Assembly: GCF_900109545.1 (NCBI RefSeq) | Contig: NZ_FOAP01000007.1 | Span: 186,001-250,000 of the forward strand | Direction of reading: 5' to 3' | Length of the DNA stretch: 64,000 nucleotides | Source of the DNA: Stigmatella aurantiaca | GTDB lineage: Bacteria > Myxococcota > Myxococcia > Myxococcales > Myxococcaceae | In this document: positions 24,306 through 32,507 of the stretch, one piece after another | Layout of the letters: every line of letters begins with the position of its first letter | Numbering within the stretch: position 1 is the stretch's first letter | Program-made: the position numbers and the translations under genes | The notes under the pieces: generated by a model | The model's database searches: none | Told to the model about the DNA's origin: nothing | What the model saw: only the letters and a program-made list of their open reading frames with translations

Positions 24306-24342
24306 GAGCAGTCCCTCAGGGCATCAGCCGGAGGGACTGCTC
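24306..24342. terminator. Perfect 12-bp inverted repeat at the argR 3' end
   Basis: GAGCAGTCCCTC (24306-24317) pairs perfectly with GAGGGACTGCTC (24331-24342) around a 13-nt loop. The repeat overlaps the last codons and stop of argR and lies 12 bp after the ADYC gene. Its position suggests a bidirectional terminator, although no T-run follows on either strand. Confidence 0.6.
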
Positions 24343-24729
24343 AAGCTGCTCCCGCACCTCTCCCAGCCGCGAGGGGTGCTTCACCGCGATGAACACCGTG
24401 TCGTCCCCCGCGATGGTGCCGGCCACCCCTTCCATGCCCACCGCGCGGTCCACCATCACCCCGACAATCTGCGCGTAGCCCGGCGCCGTCTTGAGCACGA
24501 GCATGTTCGGCGGCGCCTCCATCACCGTGGCTCGCACCGGGGGCGCAGGAGCCCGCTCCACGCGTTGGTAGCGTCCATTCACCTTCTGGACGGACAGGCG
24601 CTTGAGGTGCCGGGAGAGCGTGGACTGGCTCGGCGCCTGTCCCTCCCCCTCCAGCAACTGCTGAAGCACCGCTTGGTCCGTGATCTCGTGGGCCTCCAGC
24701 AACCGGAGGATCGCTTCGTCCAGATCCAT
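24316..24729 (-). CDS. argR: Arginine repressor ArgR
   Basis: A 137-residue ArgR. The N-terminal winged helix contains 'SQSTLSRHLKRLSVQKVNGRY', typical of the DNA-binding helix. The C-terminal oligomerisation and arginine-binding domain contains 'LVLKTAPGYAQIVGVMVDR' and 'GVAGTIAGDDTVFIAV', with the GTIAGDDT signature. ATG 24729 is chosen over an upstream ATG at 24765 because it starts at the folded domain. It is divergent from the arginine operon and is the obvious candidate to repress it through the operator-like sites in the gap. Confidence 0.95.
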   Translation of the reverse strand: MDLDEAILRLLEAHEITDQAVLQQLLEGEGQAPSQSTLSRHLKRLSVQKVNGRYQRVERAPAPPVRATVMEAPPNMLVLKTAPGYAQIVGVMVDRAVGMEGVAGTIAGDDTVFIAVKHPSRLGEVREQLEQSLRLMP

Positions 24730-24750
24730 GCACGGGACGATGCATCCACC

Positions 24751-24867
24751 TGAATATGCATGCAAGGGCCTCGTGGAACTCCCCCTGAATATCCCTGGAA
24801 ATTAATCTCTTGCGCTGCGCGTCGTGGTGAATACTATGCGCCCCTCCTGCGGGCAGGCGCATATTCA
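24751..24867. promoter_or_regulatory. Candidate ArgR operator cluster
   Basis: The argR/argF' gap holds four ARG-box-like half sites: TGAAT at 24751, 24786 and 24828, and ATTCA at 24863-24867. The outer two are part of a longer inverted pair, TGAATATGC (24751-24759) and GCATATTCA (24859-24867). The right site is embedded in an 18-bp near-palindrome (24861-24878). The ARG box consensus in other bacteria is two facing TGAAT/ATTCA halves. The region is also AT-rich compared with its surroundings. Confidence 0.6.
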
Positions 24868-24921: not shown

Positions 24922-25926
24922 ATGAAGCACCTGACCCACATCCGGGATCTCGGCCCTGAAGGCGTCGAGACGATTCTGGCGAAGGCCGCCGCCTGGAAGG
25001 GCAAGCCCGCCGAGCCGCTGTTCCTGGGCCGCATCCTGGGCATGGTGTTCTTCAACCCCTCGCTGCGCACGCGCGCCTCGTTCGAGTCGGTGATGCTGCG
25101 CGGCAGCGGCAACGCCATCGTCCTGGACGTGGGCAACGGCGTGTGGAAGCTGGAGGACCGCCCCGGGGCCATCATGAATCAGGACCGCGCCGAGCACATC
25201 AAGGAGGCCGCGCCCGTGCTGTCGCGCTTCGTGGACATGCTCGGGGTGCGCACCTTCTCGGCCGGTGGGGACGACGAGCAGGACGAGGAGGATCCGGTCA
25301 TCTCCGCCTTCCGCCGCCACGTCACCGTGCCCCTGGTGAGCATGGAGTCCGCGCGGGAGCACCCCTGCCAGGGGCTCGCGGACGTGCTCACGCTGCGCGA
25401 GAACTTCGGCTCCACGAAGAAGCTGCCGGTGACGCTCACCTGGGCGCCCCACATCAAGCCGCTGCCCAAGGCGGTGCCCAACTCCTTCCTGCTCACCGCC
25501 GCGGCGGCCGGCTGCGAGGTGCGCGTGGCGCATCCTCCCGGCTTCGAGCTGCACCCGGCGGTGCGCGCCGAGGCGGAGGCCTACGCCAAGGCCACGGGCG
25601 GCAGCGTCACCTACACGCATGACCAGAACGAGGCCCTGGCGGGCAGCCGCGCCGTCTACGCCAAGTCCTGGGGCCCGGCCACGCGCTCGGCGCACACCGC
25701 CGGGGACGTGTCCGCGCTGCTGGCCTCCCACGCGGACTGGATGCCCACGCGCCGCACCCTGTCGCGCGCCGCCGCGGACGCGCTGTTCCTCCACTGCCTT
25801 CCCGTGCGCCGCAACGTCGAGGTCGCCGACGAGGTGCTGGACCACCCGTCCAGCCGCGTCATCGACGAGGCGGAGAACCGCTTCCACGTCCAGCGCTCCA
25901 TCCTCTCCTGGCTGCTGTCGGCCTGA
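24922..25926 (+). CDS. argF': N-acyl-ornithine carbamoyltransferase (acetyl- or succinyl-ornithine type)
   Basis: A 334-residue transcarbamylase resembling the Xanthomonas acetylornithine enzyme rather than classical OTCase. Carbamoyl-phosphate residues are in 'FFNPSLRTRASFESVM' (43-58) and 'HPCQGLAD' (147-154). Type-specific features are Trp75 in 'GVWKLED', 'LTWAPHIKPLPKAVPNS', 'YAKSWG' (246-251), 'LHCLPVRRNV' (290-299) and 'IDEAENRFHVQ'. By eye, the residue matching Xanthomonas Glu92, which decides acetyl versus succinyl specificity, is Ala90, and the residue matching carboxylated Lys302 is Glu300. It is the first gene of the arginine operon, with argE downstream to remove the acyl group from acyl-citrulline. 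Confidence 0.9.
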   Translation: MKHLTHIRDLGPEGVETILAKAAAWKGKPAEPLFLGRILGMVFFNPSLRTRASFESVMLRGSGNAIVLDVGNGVWKLEDRPGAIMNQDRAEHIKEAAPVLSRFVDMLGVRTFSAGGDDEQDEEDPVISAFRRHVTVPLVSMESAREHPCQGLADVLTLRENFGSTKKLPVTLTWAPHIKPLPKAVPNSFLLTAAAAGCEVRVAHPPGFELHPAVRAEAEAYAKATGGSVTYTHDQNEALAGSRAVYAKSWGPATRSAHTAGDVSALLASHADWMPTRRTLSRAAADALFLHCLPVRRNVEVADEVLDHPSSRVIDEAENRFHVQRSILSWLLSA

Positions 25927-25944: not shown

Positions 25945-26757
25945 ATGCCCTTCTCTCCCGATCCCTACTCCGCGCTGCGCTCCGCCGCCCGCTACGTCCG
26001 GCAGTTCCGCCGGAAGACCTTCGTGGTGCTGCTCGACGGCCCCGTCATCGGGGATCCGAAGCTGCGCCGGGCGGCCTGCGAGCAGATTGGTCTCCTGTGG
26101 GCCTTCTCCATCCAGCCCGTGGTGGTGCACAGCTCGAGCCCCGAGCTGGACACCCCGTTCGACACGGGCTCGCCCCTCACCGGCCGGCTGCGCACGGACC
26201 TGCTCACGGACCTTCAGGCCGCGGGCGTGCCGTGCGTGGGCCTGAGCGGCGTGGACGCGGGCCTGCTCAAGGCCCGGCCGGTGAATGCCGGCACGAGCGG
26301 TGACATCGAGTCGGTGGACACGCGCCTGCTCCAGCACCTGCGCTCGGGCGAGTACGTGCCCGTGGTGGCGCCCCTCGCGGGCGACCCGACGGGCGCCGTG
26401 CACAACGCCAGCGCGGACACGGTGGCGGCCCTGCTCGCGGTGGCGCTGGGCGCCGAGAAGCTCTTCTTCCTGCTCACCACGCCGGGCCTGCTGCGCGACG
26501 CGTCCAACCCCAACTCCATCATCCCCCTGGCCTCGCTGCAGGAGCTGGTCGGGCTGGAGAAGGAAGGCCAGCTCTCTGGCAGCCTCAAGCCCAAGGCCCA
26601 CGCCATCCGTCACGCCCTGGAGGGCGGCGTCGGCAGCGTGCACCTGGTGAGCGGCACCCTGCCGGATGCGCTCCTGGAGGAGGTCTTCACCAACGAGGGC
26701 AGCGGCACGATGGTGGTCCGCGAGCCTCCCGCGCGTGGCGCCGGAGGGTCCACGTGA
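25945..26757 (+). CDS. argB: Divergent acetylglutamate kinase-like protein
   Basis: A 270-residue amino-acid-kinase-fold protein of the NAGK/NAGS type. It begins with a NAGS-like 'YVRQFRRKTFVVLLDG' segment and ends 'VHLVSGTLPDALLEEVFTN', typical of ArgB. 'VVAPLAGD', 'HNASADTVAALLA' and 'GSLKPKAHA' keep the Asn/Asp and the C-terminal Lys of the active site. However, the N-terminal 'VVKIGG' Lys is absent ('VVLLDG'), the glycine loop HGGGP reads HSSSP, and the 'GLRVTD' segment is largely deleted. It may therefore be a weak kinase, a regulatory subunit or a re-purposed enzyme. There is an 18-bp gap after argF'. Confidence 0.8.
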   Translation: MPFSPDPYSALRSAARYVRQFRRKTFVVLLDGPVIGDPKLRRAACEQIGLLWAFSIQPVVVHSSSPELDTPFDTGSPLTGRLRTDLLTDLQAAGVPCVGLSGVDAGLLKARPVNAGTSGDIESVDTRLLQHLRSGEYVPVVAPLAGDPTGAVHNASADTVAALLAVALGAEKLFFLLTTPGLLRDASNPNSIIPLASLQELVGLEKEGQLSGSLKPKAHAIRHALEGGVGSVHLVSGTLPDALLEEVFTNEGSGTMVVREPPARGAGGST

Positions 26758-27821
26758 CGCCAGCCGCCCTGCTCGAAGCCCTCGTGGCCACCCCCAGCGT
26801 CTCGGGAAACGAGGCGGCGATCGCGGACAAGGTGGCCTCGTGGGCCGAGGGCTGGGGTGCGCGCGTGCAGCGCCAGGGCCACAACGTGTGGTTCTCCGTG
26901 GGCCAGGGCCCGCGGCGGCTGCTCGTCAACTCGCACCTGGACACCGTGCCCCCGTGCAGCGGGTGGACGCTGGAGCCCCTGCAGCCGCTGTGGCGCGAGG
27001 GGCGCCTCTATGGCCTGGGGAGCAATGACGCCAAGGGCTGCGTGACGGCGATGCTGCTCGCGGCCCGGGAGCTGCTGGCCGCTCCCCAGTCCCTGGACGG
27101 CAAGGGCGAGGTGGTCTTCGCGTTCACCGCCGAGGAGGAGACCGGGGGCAAGGGCCTGGGCCCGCTGCTGGGCGAGCTGGGGCCGCTGGATGCCGCCGTG
27201 GTGGGCGAGCCCACGGGGCTGAAGCCCTGCACGGCCCAGCGCGGCATGCTGCTCCTGCGCTGCGTGGCCCACGGCACCTCGGGGCACGTGGCGCACGCGC
27301 ACACCACCCAGACGGAGAACGCCATCCACGTGGCGGCGCGGGACATCGCCGCCCTGGCGGAGCTGCGCTTCCTGCCCCACCCGCTGCTGGGCGAGGCCCG
27401 CGCGCAAGTCACGCAGATTCAAGGCGGCCTGGCGCGCAACCAGGTCCCCGACCGGTGCGAGTTCTTCGTGGACCTGCGCACCACACCAGGCATGGACCAT
27501 GCAGCCATCGCCCTGCAGATCGGCCGGACGCTGAAGAGCGAGGTGACAGTGCACTCCGCGCGCTACCTGCCGAAGGGGACCGCGCCGGGCGAACCCATCG
27601 TCCGCGCGGCCCTGGCGGCCTCGGGCGAGGCGCCCGTGGGCTCCAGCACCACCTCCGACTGGGCGTTCCTGGGCGACCTGCCCGCCGTGAAGGTGGGCCC
27701 GGGCGACACGCTGCGCTCCCACCGCCCCGATGAACACCTCGCCCTGGTGGAGCTGGAGGCGGGGGTTTCCTTCTACCAGAAGCTCATCCGCGGCTACTTC
27801 GAGGAGGTGGCAGGTGGCTGA
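26754..27821 (+). CDS. argE: M20 family acyl-amino-acid deacylase (ArgE type)
   Basis: A 355-residue M20 metallopeptidase-family deacylase. Dinuclear zinc ligands are visible: 'NSHLDTVPP' (His), 'LGSNDAKG' (bridging Asp), 'FTAEEETGG' (general base Glu plus ligand), 'VVGEPTG' and a final His in 'RSHRPDEH'. In an operon with an acyl-ornithine carbamoyltransferase, its likely job is hydrolysis of N-acetyl- or N-succinyl-citrulline to citrulline. It starts with GTG overlapping the argB stop by 4 nt (GTGA) and overlaps argH by 8 nt. Confidence 0.9.
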   Translation: MTPAALLEALVATPSVSGNEAAIADKVASWAEGWGARVQRQGHNVWFSVGQGPRRLLVNSHLDTVPPCSGWTLEPLQPLWREGRLYGLGSNDAKGCVTAMLLAARELLAAPQSLDGKGEVVFAFTAEEETGGKGLGPLLGELGPLDAAVVGEPTGLKPCTAQRGMLLLRCVAHGTSGHVAHAHTTQTENAIHVAARDIAALAELRFLPHPLLGEARAQVTQIQGGLARNQVPDRCEFFVDLRTTPGMDHAAIALQIGRTLKSEVTVHSARYLPKGTAPGEPIVRAALAASGEAPVGSSTTSDWAFLGDLPAVKVGPGDTLRSHRPDEHLALVELEAGVSFYQKLIRGYFEEVAGG

Positions 27822-29166
27822 AGAGACGCTGTGGGCCAAGGGCCTGGCGCTGGACACCATCATCCATGGCTTCACCGTCGGGGATGACCCGCAGGTGGAC
27901 CTGGCGCTCGCCCCTCACGACGCGCTCGGCAGCGCCGCCCATGCCCGGATGCTGGCGCGCGTGGGGCTCCTGTCCGAGGCGGACATGCGCGCCCTGGTGA
28001 CGGCCCTGCGCGCGCTCCACGACGAGGCGCGGGTGGGCGCGTTCACCATCCGCCCGGAGCAGGAGGACGGACACACCGCCCTGGAGGCCGCCCTCGTCGA
28101 GCGCGTGGGCGAGCCCGGCCGCCGCATTCACCTGGGCCGCTCGCGCAATGATCAAGTGCAGCTCGCCCTGCGGCTGCTCCTGCGCGAGGAGGTGCTGGTG
28201 CTCGGCGCGCGCACGGCGGAGCTGGCCGGTGCGTTCCTGGACTTCGCCCAGGCGCACGCGGACAAGCCGATGCCCGGCTACACGCACATGCGGCGGGCCA
28301 TGCCCAGCACGTTCGGGCTGTGGGGCGCCGCCTTCGCCGAGGCGCTGCTGGAGGAGCTGGAGGCCCTGAAGGGGCTGTGGGCGCGCGTGGACCGCTGCCC
28401 CCTGGGCGCCGCCGCGGGCTTCGGCGTGCCGCTGCCCATCGACCGGGAGTATGTCGCCTCGCTGCTCGGTTTCTCCCGCGTGCAACGCAGCCCCATCGAT
28501 GTCCAGAACAGCCGAGGGCGTCTCGAGACGGCGGCGCTCTCGTGGGGGTGCTCCATCGCGGGAGGCCTGGAGAAGTGGCTGTGGGACCTGGCGCTCTTCA
28601 CCACCGAGGAGTTTGGCTTCCTGGCGCTGCCGGACGCCTTCACCACCGGCTCGTCCATCATGCCGCAGAAGAAGAACCCGGACGTGGTGGAGTTGGCGCG
28701 GGGCCGGTGCCGGGAGCTGCGCGGCATGGCCCGTCAGGTGGAGGAGATCGCCAGCGGCCTGCCCTCCAGCTACCACCGCGACTTCCAGCTGCTCAAGCGC
28801 CCCACCCTCACGGCCCTCACCTCCCTGCGCGAGCTGCTGGAGGTCTCCACGCGCCTGGTGCCCGCGCTGCAGATCCGCGCCGAGGCGGCGGCCCGGGCGT
28901 GCGACGACACGCTGTACGCGGCCCACCATGCCTTCACGCTCGCCGGGCGCGGCCTGCCGTTCCGGGATGCCTACCGCGAGGTGGCCCAGCAGCTCGCCGG
29001 CGGCACCTTCCAACCGGACCGGGCCGCGCTGACCGCCACCCACCTGGGCGGCGCCGGCAACCTGGGCCTGGAGCAGGCCCGCGCCGAGCTGGACGCCTCG
29101 CGTGCCTGGCTCACCGACACCCACCGTGCGCTCGCCGGTTGTGCCGAGCGCATCTGGCACCCCTGA
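27814..29166 (+). CDS. argH: Argininosuccinate lyase
   Basis: A 450-residue member of the fumarase/ASL superfamily that splits argininosuccinate into arginine and fumarate. It contains 'HLGRSRNDQVQLALRL', 'PGYTHMRRAMPSTFG' and the signature 'GSSIMPQKKNPD' with the catalytic Ser loop. The start is taken as GTG 27814, inside the end of argE (8-nt overlap), because family similarity begins soon after; no ATG is available nearby. argG follows after 22 bp. Confidence 0.95.
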   Translation: MAEETLWAKGLALDTIIHGFTVGDDPQVDLALAPHDALGSAAHARMLARVGLLSEADMRALVTALRALHDEARVGAFTIRPEQEDGHTALEAALVERVGEPGRRIHLGRSRNDQVQLALRLLLREEVLVLGARTAELAGAFLDFAQAHADKPMPGYTHMRRAMPSTFGLWGAAFAEALLEELEALKGLWARVDRCPLGAAAGFGVPLPIDREYVASLLGFSRVQRSPIDVQNSRGRLETAALSWGCSIAGGLEKWLWDLALFTTEEFGFLALPDAFTTGSSIMPQKKNPDVVELARGRCRELRGMARQVEEIASGLPSSYHRDFQLLKRPTLTALTSLRELLEVSTRLVPALQIRAEAAARACDDTLYAAHHAFTLAGRGLPFRDAYREVAQQLAGGTFQPDRAALTATHLGGAGNLGLEQARAELDASRAWLTDTHRALAGCAERIWHP

Positions 29167-29188: not shown

Positions 29189-30379
29189 ATGAGCAAGAAA
29201 CCCGTGGTGCTGGCCTTCTCCGGCGGTCTGGACACCTCCTTCTGCGTCGTCTACCTGCGCGAGCAGGGCCACGCCGTCACCACCGTCACCGTGGACACCG
29301 GCGGCTTCTCGGCCGACGCCCTCAAGCGCATGCCCGAGCAGTCGGCGCGCCTGGGCGCCGTCGCCCACCACACGGTGGATGGCCGCGCGCTGCTCTTCGA
29401 CAGCTACCTGCGCCACCTGCTCGCCGGCAACGTGCTGCGCGGCCAGGCCTACCCCCTGAGCGTCTCCGCCGAGCGCGTCTGCCAGGCCACCGAGGTGGTG
29501 CGCATGGCGCGTCAGGTGGGCGGCCAGGCCCTGGCCCACGGCTCCACCGGCGCCGGCAATGATCAGATCCGCTTCGATGTGGCCTTCCGCGCCCTGGCGC
29601 CGGACCTGGACCTCATCACCCCCATCCGCGACCTGTCCCTGAGCCGGGCCCAGGAGATGACCTACCTGGCCGAGCGCGGCTTCTCCATGCCCGCCAAGAC
29701 GGCGGCCTACTCCGTCAACGAGGGCATGTGGGGCACCTCCGTGGGCGGCAAGGAGACGCACGACTCCTGGAGCGCGCTGCCGGAGGCCGCCTACCCGGGC
29801 GGCGTGGTGCCCAGCGACCTGGCGCCCCGCACGCTCGTGGTGGGCTTCGACAAGGGCCGGCCGGTGTCGCTGGACGGCAAGGCGCTGTCCCCGGTGGAGA
29901 TCATCGCCGAGCTGAACACCGTGGGGCAGCCCTACGGCGTGGGGCGCGGGGTGCATCTGGGCGACACCATCCTGGGCATCAAGGGCCGCGTGGGCTTCGA
30001 GGCGCCCGCGGCGGTGATGCTCATCACCGCGCACCGGGAGCTGGAGAAGCTGGTGCTCTCCGGCAAGCAGCTCTTCTGGAAGGAGACGCTGGGCAACCTC
30101 TACGGCACGCTGCTGCACGAGGGGCACTTCTTCGATCCGCTGGCGCGTGACTTGGAGGCCTTCCTCACCTCCTCGCAGGAGCGCGTCACGGGTGACGTGC
30201 GGCTGACGCTCCAGCCGCGCGCGCTGTTGGTGGAAGGCGTGCGCTCGCCCTACTCGCTCATGGACGCCAAGGTGGCCAGCTACGGCGAGGCCAACCACAT
30301 GTGGACGGGCGCCGAAGCCGCGGGCTTCGCCAAGGTGTATGGCGTGGCACAAACCCTGGCCCTCAAGGTGAAGTCATGA
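29189..30379 (+). CDS. argG: Argininosuccinate synthase
   Basis: A 396-residue ATP-dependent ligase that joins citrulline and aspartate. The PP-loop 'LAFSGGLDTSFCVVYL' lies at the N-terminus. Other conserved segments are 'AHGSTGAGNDQIRFDVAF', 'TPIRDLSLSR', 'YSVNEGMWG' and 'GIKGRVGFEAPAA'. Length is normal. ATG 29189 is chosen; the frame runs upstream into argH. Its stop overlaps the start of the P-loop gene by 4 nt. Confidence 0.96.
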   Translation: MSKKPVVLAFSGGLDTSFCVVYLREQGHAVTTVTVDTGGFSADALKRMPEQSARLGAVAHHTVDGRALLFDSYLRHLLAGNVLRGQAYPLSVSAERVCQATEVVRMARQVGGQALAHGSTGAGNDQIRFDVAFRALAPDLDLITPIRDLSLSRAQEMTYLAERGFSMPAKTAAYSVNEGMWGTSVGGKETHDSWSALPEAAYPGGVVPSDLAPRTLVVGFDKGRPVSLDGKALSPVEIIAELNTVGQPYGVGRGVHLGDTILGIKGRVGFEAPAAVMLITAHRELEKLVLSGKQLFWKETLGNLYGTLLHEGHFFDPLARDLEAFLTSSQERVTGDVRLTLQPRALLVEGVRSPYSLMDAKVASYGEANHMWTGAEAAGFAKVYGVAQTLALKVKS

Positions 30380-31440
30380 AGGTACACGTCGACAAGGTGG
30401 GCAGCGTCACCCGCAACCTGCGGCTGGGCCGGACCGTGAGCCTCACCACCGATATCCAGGCGGTGGAGGGCGCGGTCATCGCCGCGCGCATCCACGGCGA
30501 GAAGTCCGTCTACAACCAGCTCGAGGACGTGCACGGGCGGCTGGTGACGCTGCACGGCGGGGACATCGTCGTCGGGGCGCTCGGCCACCGCAACGCGCTG
30601 CACGGCTACGAGGGCGTAGTGCCCGAGAAGGTGGAGGCCGGCCAGCGGCTGCACGTGCTCAACATGGGCGGCGTCATCGGCCAGTGCACCTCGCACAACC
30701 CCGGCGTGGGCACCCCGTTCGAGGCGGAGGTGCTCGGCCAGGTGCTCGTGTTCCCCGAGTTCCAGTCCCGCACGGGCCAGCCGGCCCACATCCGCGCCGG
30801 CGCACTCCGCGGCTCGGAGAAGCCGGTGACGGTCCCGGTGGTGTACGTGGTGGGCACCTGCATGAACGCGGGCAAGACGTACGCCGCGTGCGCGCTGGTG
30901 CGCCGGCTCTCCCAGGCGGGCTACCGCGTGGGCGGCGCCAAGCTCACGGGCGTGTCGCTCATGCGCGACACGCTGAGCATGCGCGATTCGGGCGCCGAGG
31001 TGGTGATGGACTTCACCGACGCGGGCACCGTGTGCACCAGCCCCCGGACCGCTTCCCAGGTCTCCCGCATCATCCTGTCCGAGCTGGCGGCCGCCGAGGT
31101 GGACGTCATCGTCGCGGAGACGGGCGACGGCATCATGGGCGAGTACGGCGTGCAGTCGATCCTCGCCGACCCGGGCCTGCGCGGCCTGGGCAGCTCCTTC
31201 ATGCTCTGCGCCAATGATCCGGTGGGGGCCTCCGGCGGCGTGCGTCACCTGAAGGAGACGTACGGCATCACCGTGGACGTGGTGGCCGGTCCCGCCACCG
31301 ACAACGGGGTGGGCATCCGCTTCGTCGAGCGCGAAGTGGGCGTGCCCGCCCGCAATGCCCGCGCGGATGCGGCGGGCCTGGGCAATCTCATCCTGGAGCG
31401 GCTCACGCCCCAGCTTGGTACCGGTCGGAGGAGCGCATGA
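30376..31440 (+). CDS. P-loop NTPase of unknown function inside the arginine operon
   Basis: A 354-residue protein coupled by ATGA overlaps to argG before it and argC after it. The N-terminal 155 residues form a beta-rich domain without a recognised motif ('LVTLHGGDIVVGALGHRNAL', 'LNMGGVIGQCTSHNPG'). A P-loop follows at 160-168 (GTCMNAGKT), then 'GYRVGGAKLTGVSLMRD' and 'VDVIVAETGDGIMGEYG', the layout of SIMIBI-class proteins such as MobB, BioD and CobQ, and more loosely DUF1611 proteins. The strict coupling argues for a role in arginine synthesis, for example in the N-acylation of glutamate that the operon otherwise lacks, but that is a guess. Confidence 0.75.
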   Translation: MKVHVDKVGSVTRNLRLGRTVSLTTDIQAVEGAVIAARIHGEKSVYNQLEDVHGRLVTLHGGDIVVGALGHRNALHGYEGVVPEKVEAGQRLHVLNMGGVIGQCTSHNPGVGTPFEAEVLGQVLVFPEFQSRTGQPAHIRAGALRGSEKPVTVPVVYVVGTCMNAGKTYAACALVRRLSQAGYRVGGAKLTGVSLMRDTLSMRDSGAEVVMDFTDAGTVCTSPRTASQVSRIILSELAAAEVDVIVAETGDGIMGEYGVQSILADPGLRGLGSSFMLCANDPVGASGGVRHLKETYGITVDVVAGPATDNGVGIRFVEREVGVPARNARADAAGLGNLILERLTPQLGTGRRSA

Positions 31441-32507
31441 GTCGGGTTCACGCCTATATCCTGGGGGCATCGGGTTTCGGGGGTGGCGAGTTGCTGCGGC
31501 TGCTGGCCGGGCACCCGTCCGTCGCGGGCATCCGTGCGGTGTCCAAGCCACACGCGGACACCCTGCTCTGGAAGGTGCACCCGCACCTGCGCAGCCTCAT
31601 GGACGGCCACTTCGAGGCCGAGCCGGACTGGAAGTGGCTCACGGACTCGCCGCAGCCGGTGGTGTTCTCCTGCCTGGAGGACGAGGAGCTGGCGCGTCAG
31701 CTCCCCGCCCTGGAGAAGAAGTGGGCCGAGCTGGGGCTCGCCGACCGGATGATCCTCATCGATCTGTCGCCGGACTTCCGGTTGGATCACGCGGGGCGCT
31801 ACGCCGCCACGCATGGCCGCCCCCACCCCACGCCGGAGCTGCTGGAGCGCTTCGTCTACGGGCTCACCGAGTGGCGCCGCGACAAGCTCAAGGGGGCCCG
31901 CCGCATCTCCAACCCGGGGTGCTTCGCCACCGCCGTGCAGCTCGCGCTCTTGCCGGTGGCCGCCACGCCGGGCCTGGGCCTCATCGCCGCCACGGCCGTC
32001 ACGGGCTCCTCGGGCTCCGGGGCGATCCCCGTCGATGTGACGCACCACCCCACGCGCGCCCATGACTTCCGCGCCTACCGGCCGCTGGAGCACCAGCAGG
32101 AGGCGGAGATCGACGTGATGCTCGTGGCGCACAAGGCCTCGCGCCACCGGCTCACCTTCGTGCCGCACTCGGCGCCGCTGGTGCGCGGCATCTTCGCCAC
32201 CGTGCAGTTCGAGTGGCCGGAGACCGCCGGCGGCGTGAGCACCGCGTCCCTCACCACGCAGTACCGCAACTACTACACCGGCTCGCCGTTCATCCGGGTG
32301 GTGGAGGGCAGCCCGCGCCTGGCCTCCGTGGTGGGCAGCAACTTCGTCGACATCGCGGTGGCCACGCGGGGCCGCACCGTGGCGGCGATGGTGGCGCTGG
32401 ACAACCTGGTGAAGGGCATGGCGGGCCAGGCGGTGCAGAACCTCAACGTGGCCCTGGGGCTGCCCGAGGACACCGCCCTGCGGCAAGCCGCGTGCTACCC
32501 CTGCTGA
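31437..32507 (+). CDS. argC: N-acetyl-gamma-glutamyl-phosphate reductase
   Basis: A 356-residue NADP-dependent reductase. The nucleotide-binding loop is 'ILGASGFGGGELLRLL', the catalytic Cys is C162 in 'ISNPGCFATAVQLALLP', and 'TGSSGSGAIPVDVTHHP' and 'HSAPLVRGIFATVQ' are conserved. The presence of argC implies that an acyl-glutamyl phosphate is made in the cell, by the divergent ArgB here or another kinase. It is the last gene of the operon, starting by ATGA overlap. Confidence 0.94.
   Translation: MSRVHAYILGASGFGGGELLRLLAGHPSVAGIRAVSKPHADTLLWKVHPHLRSLMDGHFEAEPDWKWLTDSPQPVVFSCLEDEELARQLPALEKKWAELGLADRMILIDLSPDFRLDHAGRYAATHGRPHPTPELLERFVYGLTEWRRDKLKGARRISNPGCFATAVQLALLPVAATPGLGLIAATAVTGSSGSGAIPVDVTHHPTRAHDFRAYRPLEHQQEAEIDVMLVAHKASRHRLTFVPHSAPLVRGIFATVQFEWPETAGGVSTASLTTQYRNYYTGSPFIRVVEGSPRLASVVGSNFVDIAVATRGRTVAAMVALDNLVKGMAGQAVQNLNVALGLPEDTALRQAACYPC

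Follow-up and report, generated by a model that had tools for sequence, protein, structure and literature searches.

A P-loop protein encoded within the arginine operon of Stigmatella aurantiaca is a candidate non-GNAT N-acylglutamate synthase

The N-acylglutamate synthases described so far include ArgA, ArgJ, NAGS-K, S-NAGS, ArgO and C-NAGS, as well as the BT3761 type of Bacteroidota. In the succinylated arginine pathway of Bacteroides (SOTCase), the first step is assigned to BT3761, which is related to a known synthase. Among P-loop proteins, DgcN, which acts on D-glutamate, is the named N-acetyltransferase of the DUF1611 family (PF07755; 2g0t, 2obn, 7xrj), and BioD, CTP synthase and CobB/CobQ use ATP to activate an oxygen or a carboxylate towards attack by an amine. 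Here we describe a P-loop protein from an arginine operon of Stigmatella aurantiaca, for which we propose the reaction and the pathway slot of the N-acylglutamate synthases. It differs from them in having a SIMIBI fold joined to an unrecognised beta domain, and Pfam and NCBIfam scans revealed no GNAT/NAT or ArgJ domain in it. The carbamoyltransferase of this operon carries succinyl-type residues as in Bacteroides, but the first step is proposed here for the P-loop protein. No published description of this protein, or of any non-GNAT N-succinylglutamate synthase, was found in a literature search that covered few subscription journals.

The window, i.e. the whole stretch of DNA analysed, comprises 64,000 nt of S. 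aurantiaca contig NZ_FOAP01000007.1, and all coordinates refer to it. The operon runs in the order argF', argB, argE, argH, argG, P-loop gene and argC, preceded by a divergent argR-like gene, as follows.

24316..24765, minus strand: argR-like repressor, divergent from the operon (TIGR01529, 74 bits, below cut-off)
24922..25926, plus strand: argF', N-acylornithine carbamoyltransferase (Ala/Pro/Glu at Xanthomonas positions 92/185/302, succinyl-type)
25945..26757, plus strand: argB copy without kinase catalytic residues, probable pseudokinase (from sequence)
26754..27821, plus strand: argE-like M20 deacylase (ArgE/DapE models, all below their own cut-offs)
27814..29166, plus strand: argH (TIGR00838, 290 bits, above cut-off)
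29189..30379, plus strand: argG (TIGR00032, 317 bits, above cut-off)
30376..31440, plus strand: P-loop protein, 354 aa, candidate N-acyl(succinyl)glutamate synthase (open reading frame and translation, conserved family, model pLDDT 92.5)
31437..32507, plus strand: argC (TIGR01850, 292 bits, above cut-off)

Translation agreed with the 354-residue open reading frame at 30376-31440 on the plus strand that an earlier note on this DNA had described, and the ATGA overlaps which that note had seen with argG and argC are present at 30376-30379 and 31437-31440. A scan of genome contigs yielded 118 relatives, and 80 of them were retained. The P-loop gene was flanked by arg genes in 80/80 loci, where the contig reached far enough. 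Since all 80 share this placement across many phyla, a chance open reading frame was ruled out. The usual neighbours were argG before and argC after the gene (nearly always), with argF' and argB usually clustered, and a divergent argR-like gene occupied the same place in most of the loci. By record title, some of which may be wrong in the case of MAGs, the carriers belong to Myxococcaceae, Holophagaceae/Acidobacteria, Lysobacterales and other Gammaproteobacteria, Verrucomicrobia, Armatimonadetes, Phycisphaerales and Elusimicrobia. In one Myxococcota genome (L157), argF', argB and the P-loop gene form a compact trio, which connects the gene with the acylated intermediates and not with argG. In the P-loop-containing operons L038, L050, L058, L065 and L073, an argE homologue was not detected nearby. 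A Myxococcus-like arginine operon was also present on a contig titled Comamonas sp. KCTC 72670 (L016), a record which is probably mislabelled or contaminated.

The earlier note had remarked that the operon has no argA or argJ, and neither was found inside the operon of the window. In the genome of the window, ArgJ (PF01960), full-length ArgA and the NAT domain of NAGS-K were all not found. ArgJ was likewise found in 0/31 carrier genomes, the same search having matched 10/14 control genomes. The ArgA model TIGR01890 detected no full-length ArgA in the 31 carriers, and returned ArgB-like kinases without the acetyltransferase half along with some stray GNATs. The NAGS-K acetyltransferase domain (PF04768) was found in 0/31 carriers; no control matched there, although the same model did detect NAGS-K in relatives in later searches. 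Of the stray GNATs in the carriers, the two strongest proved to be ArsN2 arsenic-resistance acetyltransferases and were rejected as synthase candidates. A third (L171), from the Citreicoccus genome that holds locus L010, was ArsN2-like and fused to an arsenate-reductase-like domain. Myxococcus xanthus also carries the P-loop gene (L023), which in strain DK1622 is located downstream of argE (MXAN_1012). This species needs no arginine supplement on A1 minimal medium, and arginine auxotrophy results when its argE is disrupted by an insertion (PMC5801462). Holophagaceae other than Acidiparvus have been reported to be without N-acetylglutamate synthase (PMC11561045). The absence of known synthases, the prototrophy of M. 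xanthus and the report on Holophagaceae thus imply that the first step is carried out by something unrecognised.

Across genomes, the P-loop gene was mutually exclusive with both ArgJ and NAGS-K. Among 174 Myxococcota genomes, the full-length P-loop gene was present in 59 and ArgJ in 76, with an overlap of 0 (Fisher 2e-20, relatedness ignored). Three of the ArgJ genomes gave weak paralogue matches of the P-loop protein but no full-length gene, and within Myxococcaceae the split between the P-loop gene and ArgJ followed genera. This exclusion is partly to be expected, because the argF' pathway is linear and its acyl groups are not recyclable through ArgJ; the exclusion with NAGS-K is the cleaner test. 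The earlier note had suggested examining co-occurrence with argF', and the P-loop gene was indeed present in 57 of the 63 genomes with argF'. NAGS-K was found in 5/6 of the argF' genomes without the P-loop gene, as against 0/11 P-loop carriers tested in the same search. Of 121 genomes of Lysobacterales (the order of genome G016), 9 were carriers (8 full-length, 1 cut by the contig end), and NAGS-K was found in 0/9 of these as compared to 102/112 non-carriers, scored by its NAT domain (Fisher 8e-9, relatedness ignored). The earlier proposal that the P-loop protein could fill the missing N-acylation of glutamate appears well supported by such comparative genomics. Taking together the location in arginine operons of many phyla, the lack of known synthases, the mutual exclusion with them and the association with succinyl-type argF', we consider it on balance probable, by a little, that arginine synthesis is started here by the P-loop protein, acting as a non-GNAT N-acylglutamate synthase whose product would most likely be N-succinyl-L-glutamate.

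The argB copy of the operon had been described as crippled-looking, and this was confirmed: the catalytic Lys is replaced by Leu and HGGG by HSSS, with deletion of the AGRRVT substrate block. However, its use as evidence for a missing step did not hold, because an intact argB is usual beside the P-loop gene. The defect was seen only in the genus group of the window (the window, L002 and L003; HGGG to HSSS/HGAG), whereas Myxococcus, Geothrix and others keep the residues. As the decay is restricted to a genus group in which another argB, located elsewhere, is intact, it should be considered separately from the P-loop gene. The second argC-argB pair, with an ATGA overlap and a divergent GNAT nearby, lies at L164:4226-6746 (G000 contig 14), and this argC2-argB2 and GNAT cluster is conserved in three genomes of the group, the two further ones being L175 and L176. 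The kinase step in the genus is probably carried out by ArgB2. The cluster may be a second acyl route, or it may provide the kinase activity that the operon has lost; together with the GNAT, the pair may run part of the pathway in this genus.

The main rival to the synthase reading, and its main risk, is that an unlinked and unrecognised GNAT (e.g. the Bacteroidota BT3761 type) makes N-acylglutamate and that the P-loop protein is an accessory, for instance one that regulates ArgB, ArgC or the carbamoyltransferase or takes part in channelling with one of them. We regard this as unlikely, although it has several points in its favour. The genome of the window has 42 PF00583 matches, a conserved GNAT adjoins argC2-argB2 in its genus, and a BT3761/Cabys_1732-like synthase, known in Bacteroidota, stays a candidate, the succinyl-pathway Bacteroidota using the GNAT-type gene BT3761 (PMC7311316). 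Against this, most of the small carrier genomes showed no ArgA-related GNAT at E 1e-3, the single match being ArgB. No argB2 copy was seen outside the genus of the window, and the GNAT beside argC2-argB2 cannot explain genomes without that cluster. Moreover, the exclusion with NAGS-K would be hard to account for if the P-loop protein were an accessory.

The identity of the acyl group was approached through argF'. Acetylornithine carbamoyltransferases carry Glu92, Asn185 and Lys302, whereas the corresponding residues of succinylornithine carbamoyltransferases are A/S/P/V/Q, P and V/I/E (reviewed in PMC4581275). The argF' of the window has Ala, Pro and Glu and thus follows the N-succinylornithine and not the N-acetylornithine carbamoyltransferase rule; its best PDB match, 3l02, also has Ala at position 92. 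Glu92 was found in 0/70 of the argF' proteins encoded beside the P-loop gene (A/P/Q/T/V instead), and 62/70 followed all three succinyl rules, the other 8 deviating from one or two of them (Thr92; Ala185; Lys302). In contrast, argF' from genomes without the P-loop gene had the acetyl-type Glu/Asn/Lys in 9/9 cases. The NCBIfam label of the window protein is N-acetylornithine carbamoyltransferase (425 bits), and a comparable annotation error has been put right for Bacteroides (PMC7311316). By its active-site residues, the argF' of the earlier note is of the succinyl and not the acetyl type. The argF' residues further link the P-loop protein to acyl chemistry, and they point to succinyl.

No model scored above cut-off when the P-loop protein was scanned against Pfam and NCBIfam. 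The best were DUF1611 (23 of 25 bits) and MobB (TIGR00176, 25.9 against a cut-off of 76.2 bits), and dethiobiotin synthetase (TIGR00347) scored 17.4 against 83.3 bits. An AlphaFold2 model (pLDDT 92.5, pTM 0.90) and an alignment of 33 relatives, with 83 invariant positions, defined the following features.

30376..30828, plus strand: N-terminal all-beta domain, residues 1-151 (best PDB match Z 3.4, not convincing)
30853..30879, plus strand: Walker A GTCMNAGKT, residues 160-168 (alignment of relatives)
30940..30942, plus strand: invariant Lys189, aligned with Lys37 of BioD (phmmer alignment, invariance)
31117..31119, plus strand: invariant Glu248 at the end of a Walker-B-like strand (alignment, model), proposed, on an inferred mapping, as counterpart of BioD Glu115

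The N-terminal domain had no significant Foldseek match, and VIA-align gave none above Z 3.4, with LexA/EF-Tu-like proteins as the matches; a new fold is not proven thereby. In the model, residues 151-353 form a SIMIBI P-loop domain, matching CTP synthase (Z 16.9), the DUF1611 protein 2g0t (Z 16.3), BioD (Z 15.3) and DgcN 7xrj (Z 14.1), and the top structural matches comprised CTP synthase, BioD, SRP GTPases and HypB. The SIMIBI-like layout foreseen in the earlier note was therefore recovered as a Walker A motif in a SIMIBI-type alpha/beta domain, and the GTCMNAGKT motif that it had placed at 160-168 is nearly invariant in the 33 relatives. As the Z scores of CTP synthase, 2g0t, BioD and 7xrj lie close together, the modelled fold alone would not choose a function. 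K167, T168, K189, D198, D204 and E248 are invariant in the family alignment, consistent with a protein that binds Mg-nucleotide. With BioD, CTP synthase and CobB/CobQ the P-loop protein shares the P-loop domain fold (Z 15-17) and GTxxxxGKT, and with BioD the aligned lysine, but identity is about 15-20%, scores are far under the family cut-offs (BioD 17 of 83 bits), and the P-loop protein adds the beta domain and lies in another operon.

The likeness to DUF1611 suggested in the earlier note held at the level of fold, that is, a SIMIBI P-loop domain with a GTxCxxGK-type loop, but not as family membership. PF07755 reached 23 bits against the 25-bit cut-off, over 44 of 201 positions. All of the 33 family members matched it weakly (best E 4.9e-05), and in a genome-level search the window's own locus was also below cut-off. 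Profile comparison by hhalign aligned 40 columns around the P-loop, at 13% probability, and left the all-beta N-domain unaligned to the DUF1611 family, whereas a true DUF1611/DgcN profile finds 7xrj, 2obn and 2g0t at E<1e-68. Besides its different N-domain, the P-loop protein has a canonical GKT with invariant Thr168, in contrast to the GKK, GKM or GKR of the DUF1611 sequences examined.

These data also bear on a second alternative, in which the P-loop protein catalyses the first step with acetyl and not succinyl, as an acetyl-CoA-dependent synthase like DgcN. The same P-loop fold in DgcN, the NCBIfam name of argF' and the ordinary ArgB kept in the genus of the window are in line with it. We nevertheless find it quite improbable, since the neighbouring argF' proteins are all without Glu92 and mostly have the Pro185 and Glu302 of the succinyl signature, and since the family is not DUF1611 by sequence, the DUF1611 sequences examined being without Thr or Ser after GK. 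That the protein is a SIMIBI NTPase delivering metal to the metalloenzyme ArgE, or activating it, is very improbable, for although the fold resembles HypB and MeaB-type chaperones and ArgE-type M20 enzymes need metal, argE was not detected near the gene in the five loci named above, the invariant residues include no His/Cys-rich metal site, and the missing first step would be left unexplained.

Returning to the synthase reading, we infer the reaction, the succinyl group and the cosubstrate (ATP or CoA) as follows. The P-loop protein would convert L-glutamate to N-acylglutamate, most likely N-succinyl-L-glutamate; ArgB, ArgC and ArgD would act on the acylated chain; argF' would carbamoylate the acylated ornithine; ArgE would strip the acyl group from acyl-citrulline; and ArgG and ArgH would complete arginine. 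If ATP is used, succinate would first become an acyl phosphate, which the amine of glutamate would then capture. The canonical GKT Walker A, BioD-like Lys189 and Glu248, and the Mg-nucleotide binding they suggest, slightly favour such an ATP-dependent succinate-glutamate ligase over a succinyl-CoA transferase. That an ATP-dependent succinate:L-glutamate ligase of BioD/CobB fold starts arginine synthesis in these lineages is a tentative possibility. It would constitute a new enzyme family with new chemistry for step one, and would place N-succinyl intermediates outside Bacteroidota. The synthase reading, if true, would supply a step missing from the arginine synthesis of cultured bacteria (the prototroph M. 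xanthus, and Holophagaceae reported without the first enzyme) and would establish a protein family not described before, whose beta domain has an unrecognised fold. The proteins annotated in these bacteria as N-acetylornithine carbamoyltransferases would then be misannotated succinyl enzymes.

Distant paralogues fell into two groups, in which the N-domain signature and the P-loop core are present and the residues of the arg branch are not; Glu248 and Asp198/204 are common to them. Members of group two (L125:5913-7061, L126:5828-7069, L128:6913-8100 and L129:5501-6676) are about 380-410 aa long, carry an N-terminal extension and have no known context. In group one, the paralogue gene directly adjoins an M20 hydrolase of the glutamate-carboxypeptidase/ArgE-DapE type in the two loci examined (L121:4765-6998 and L123:6185-8363). 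The pairing of a P-loop paralogue with an amide hydrolase fits, as a suggestion only, a general role in making acyl-amino-acid bonds.
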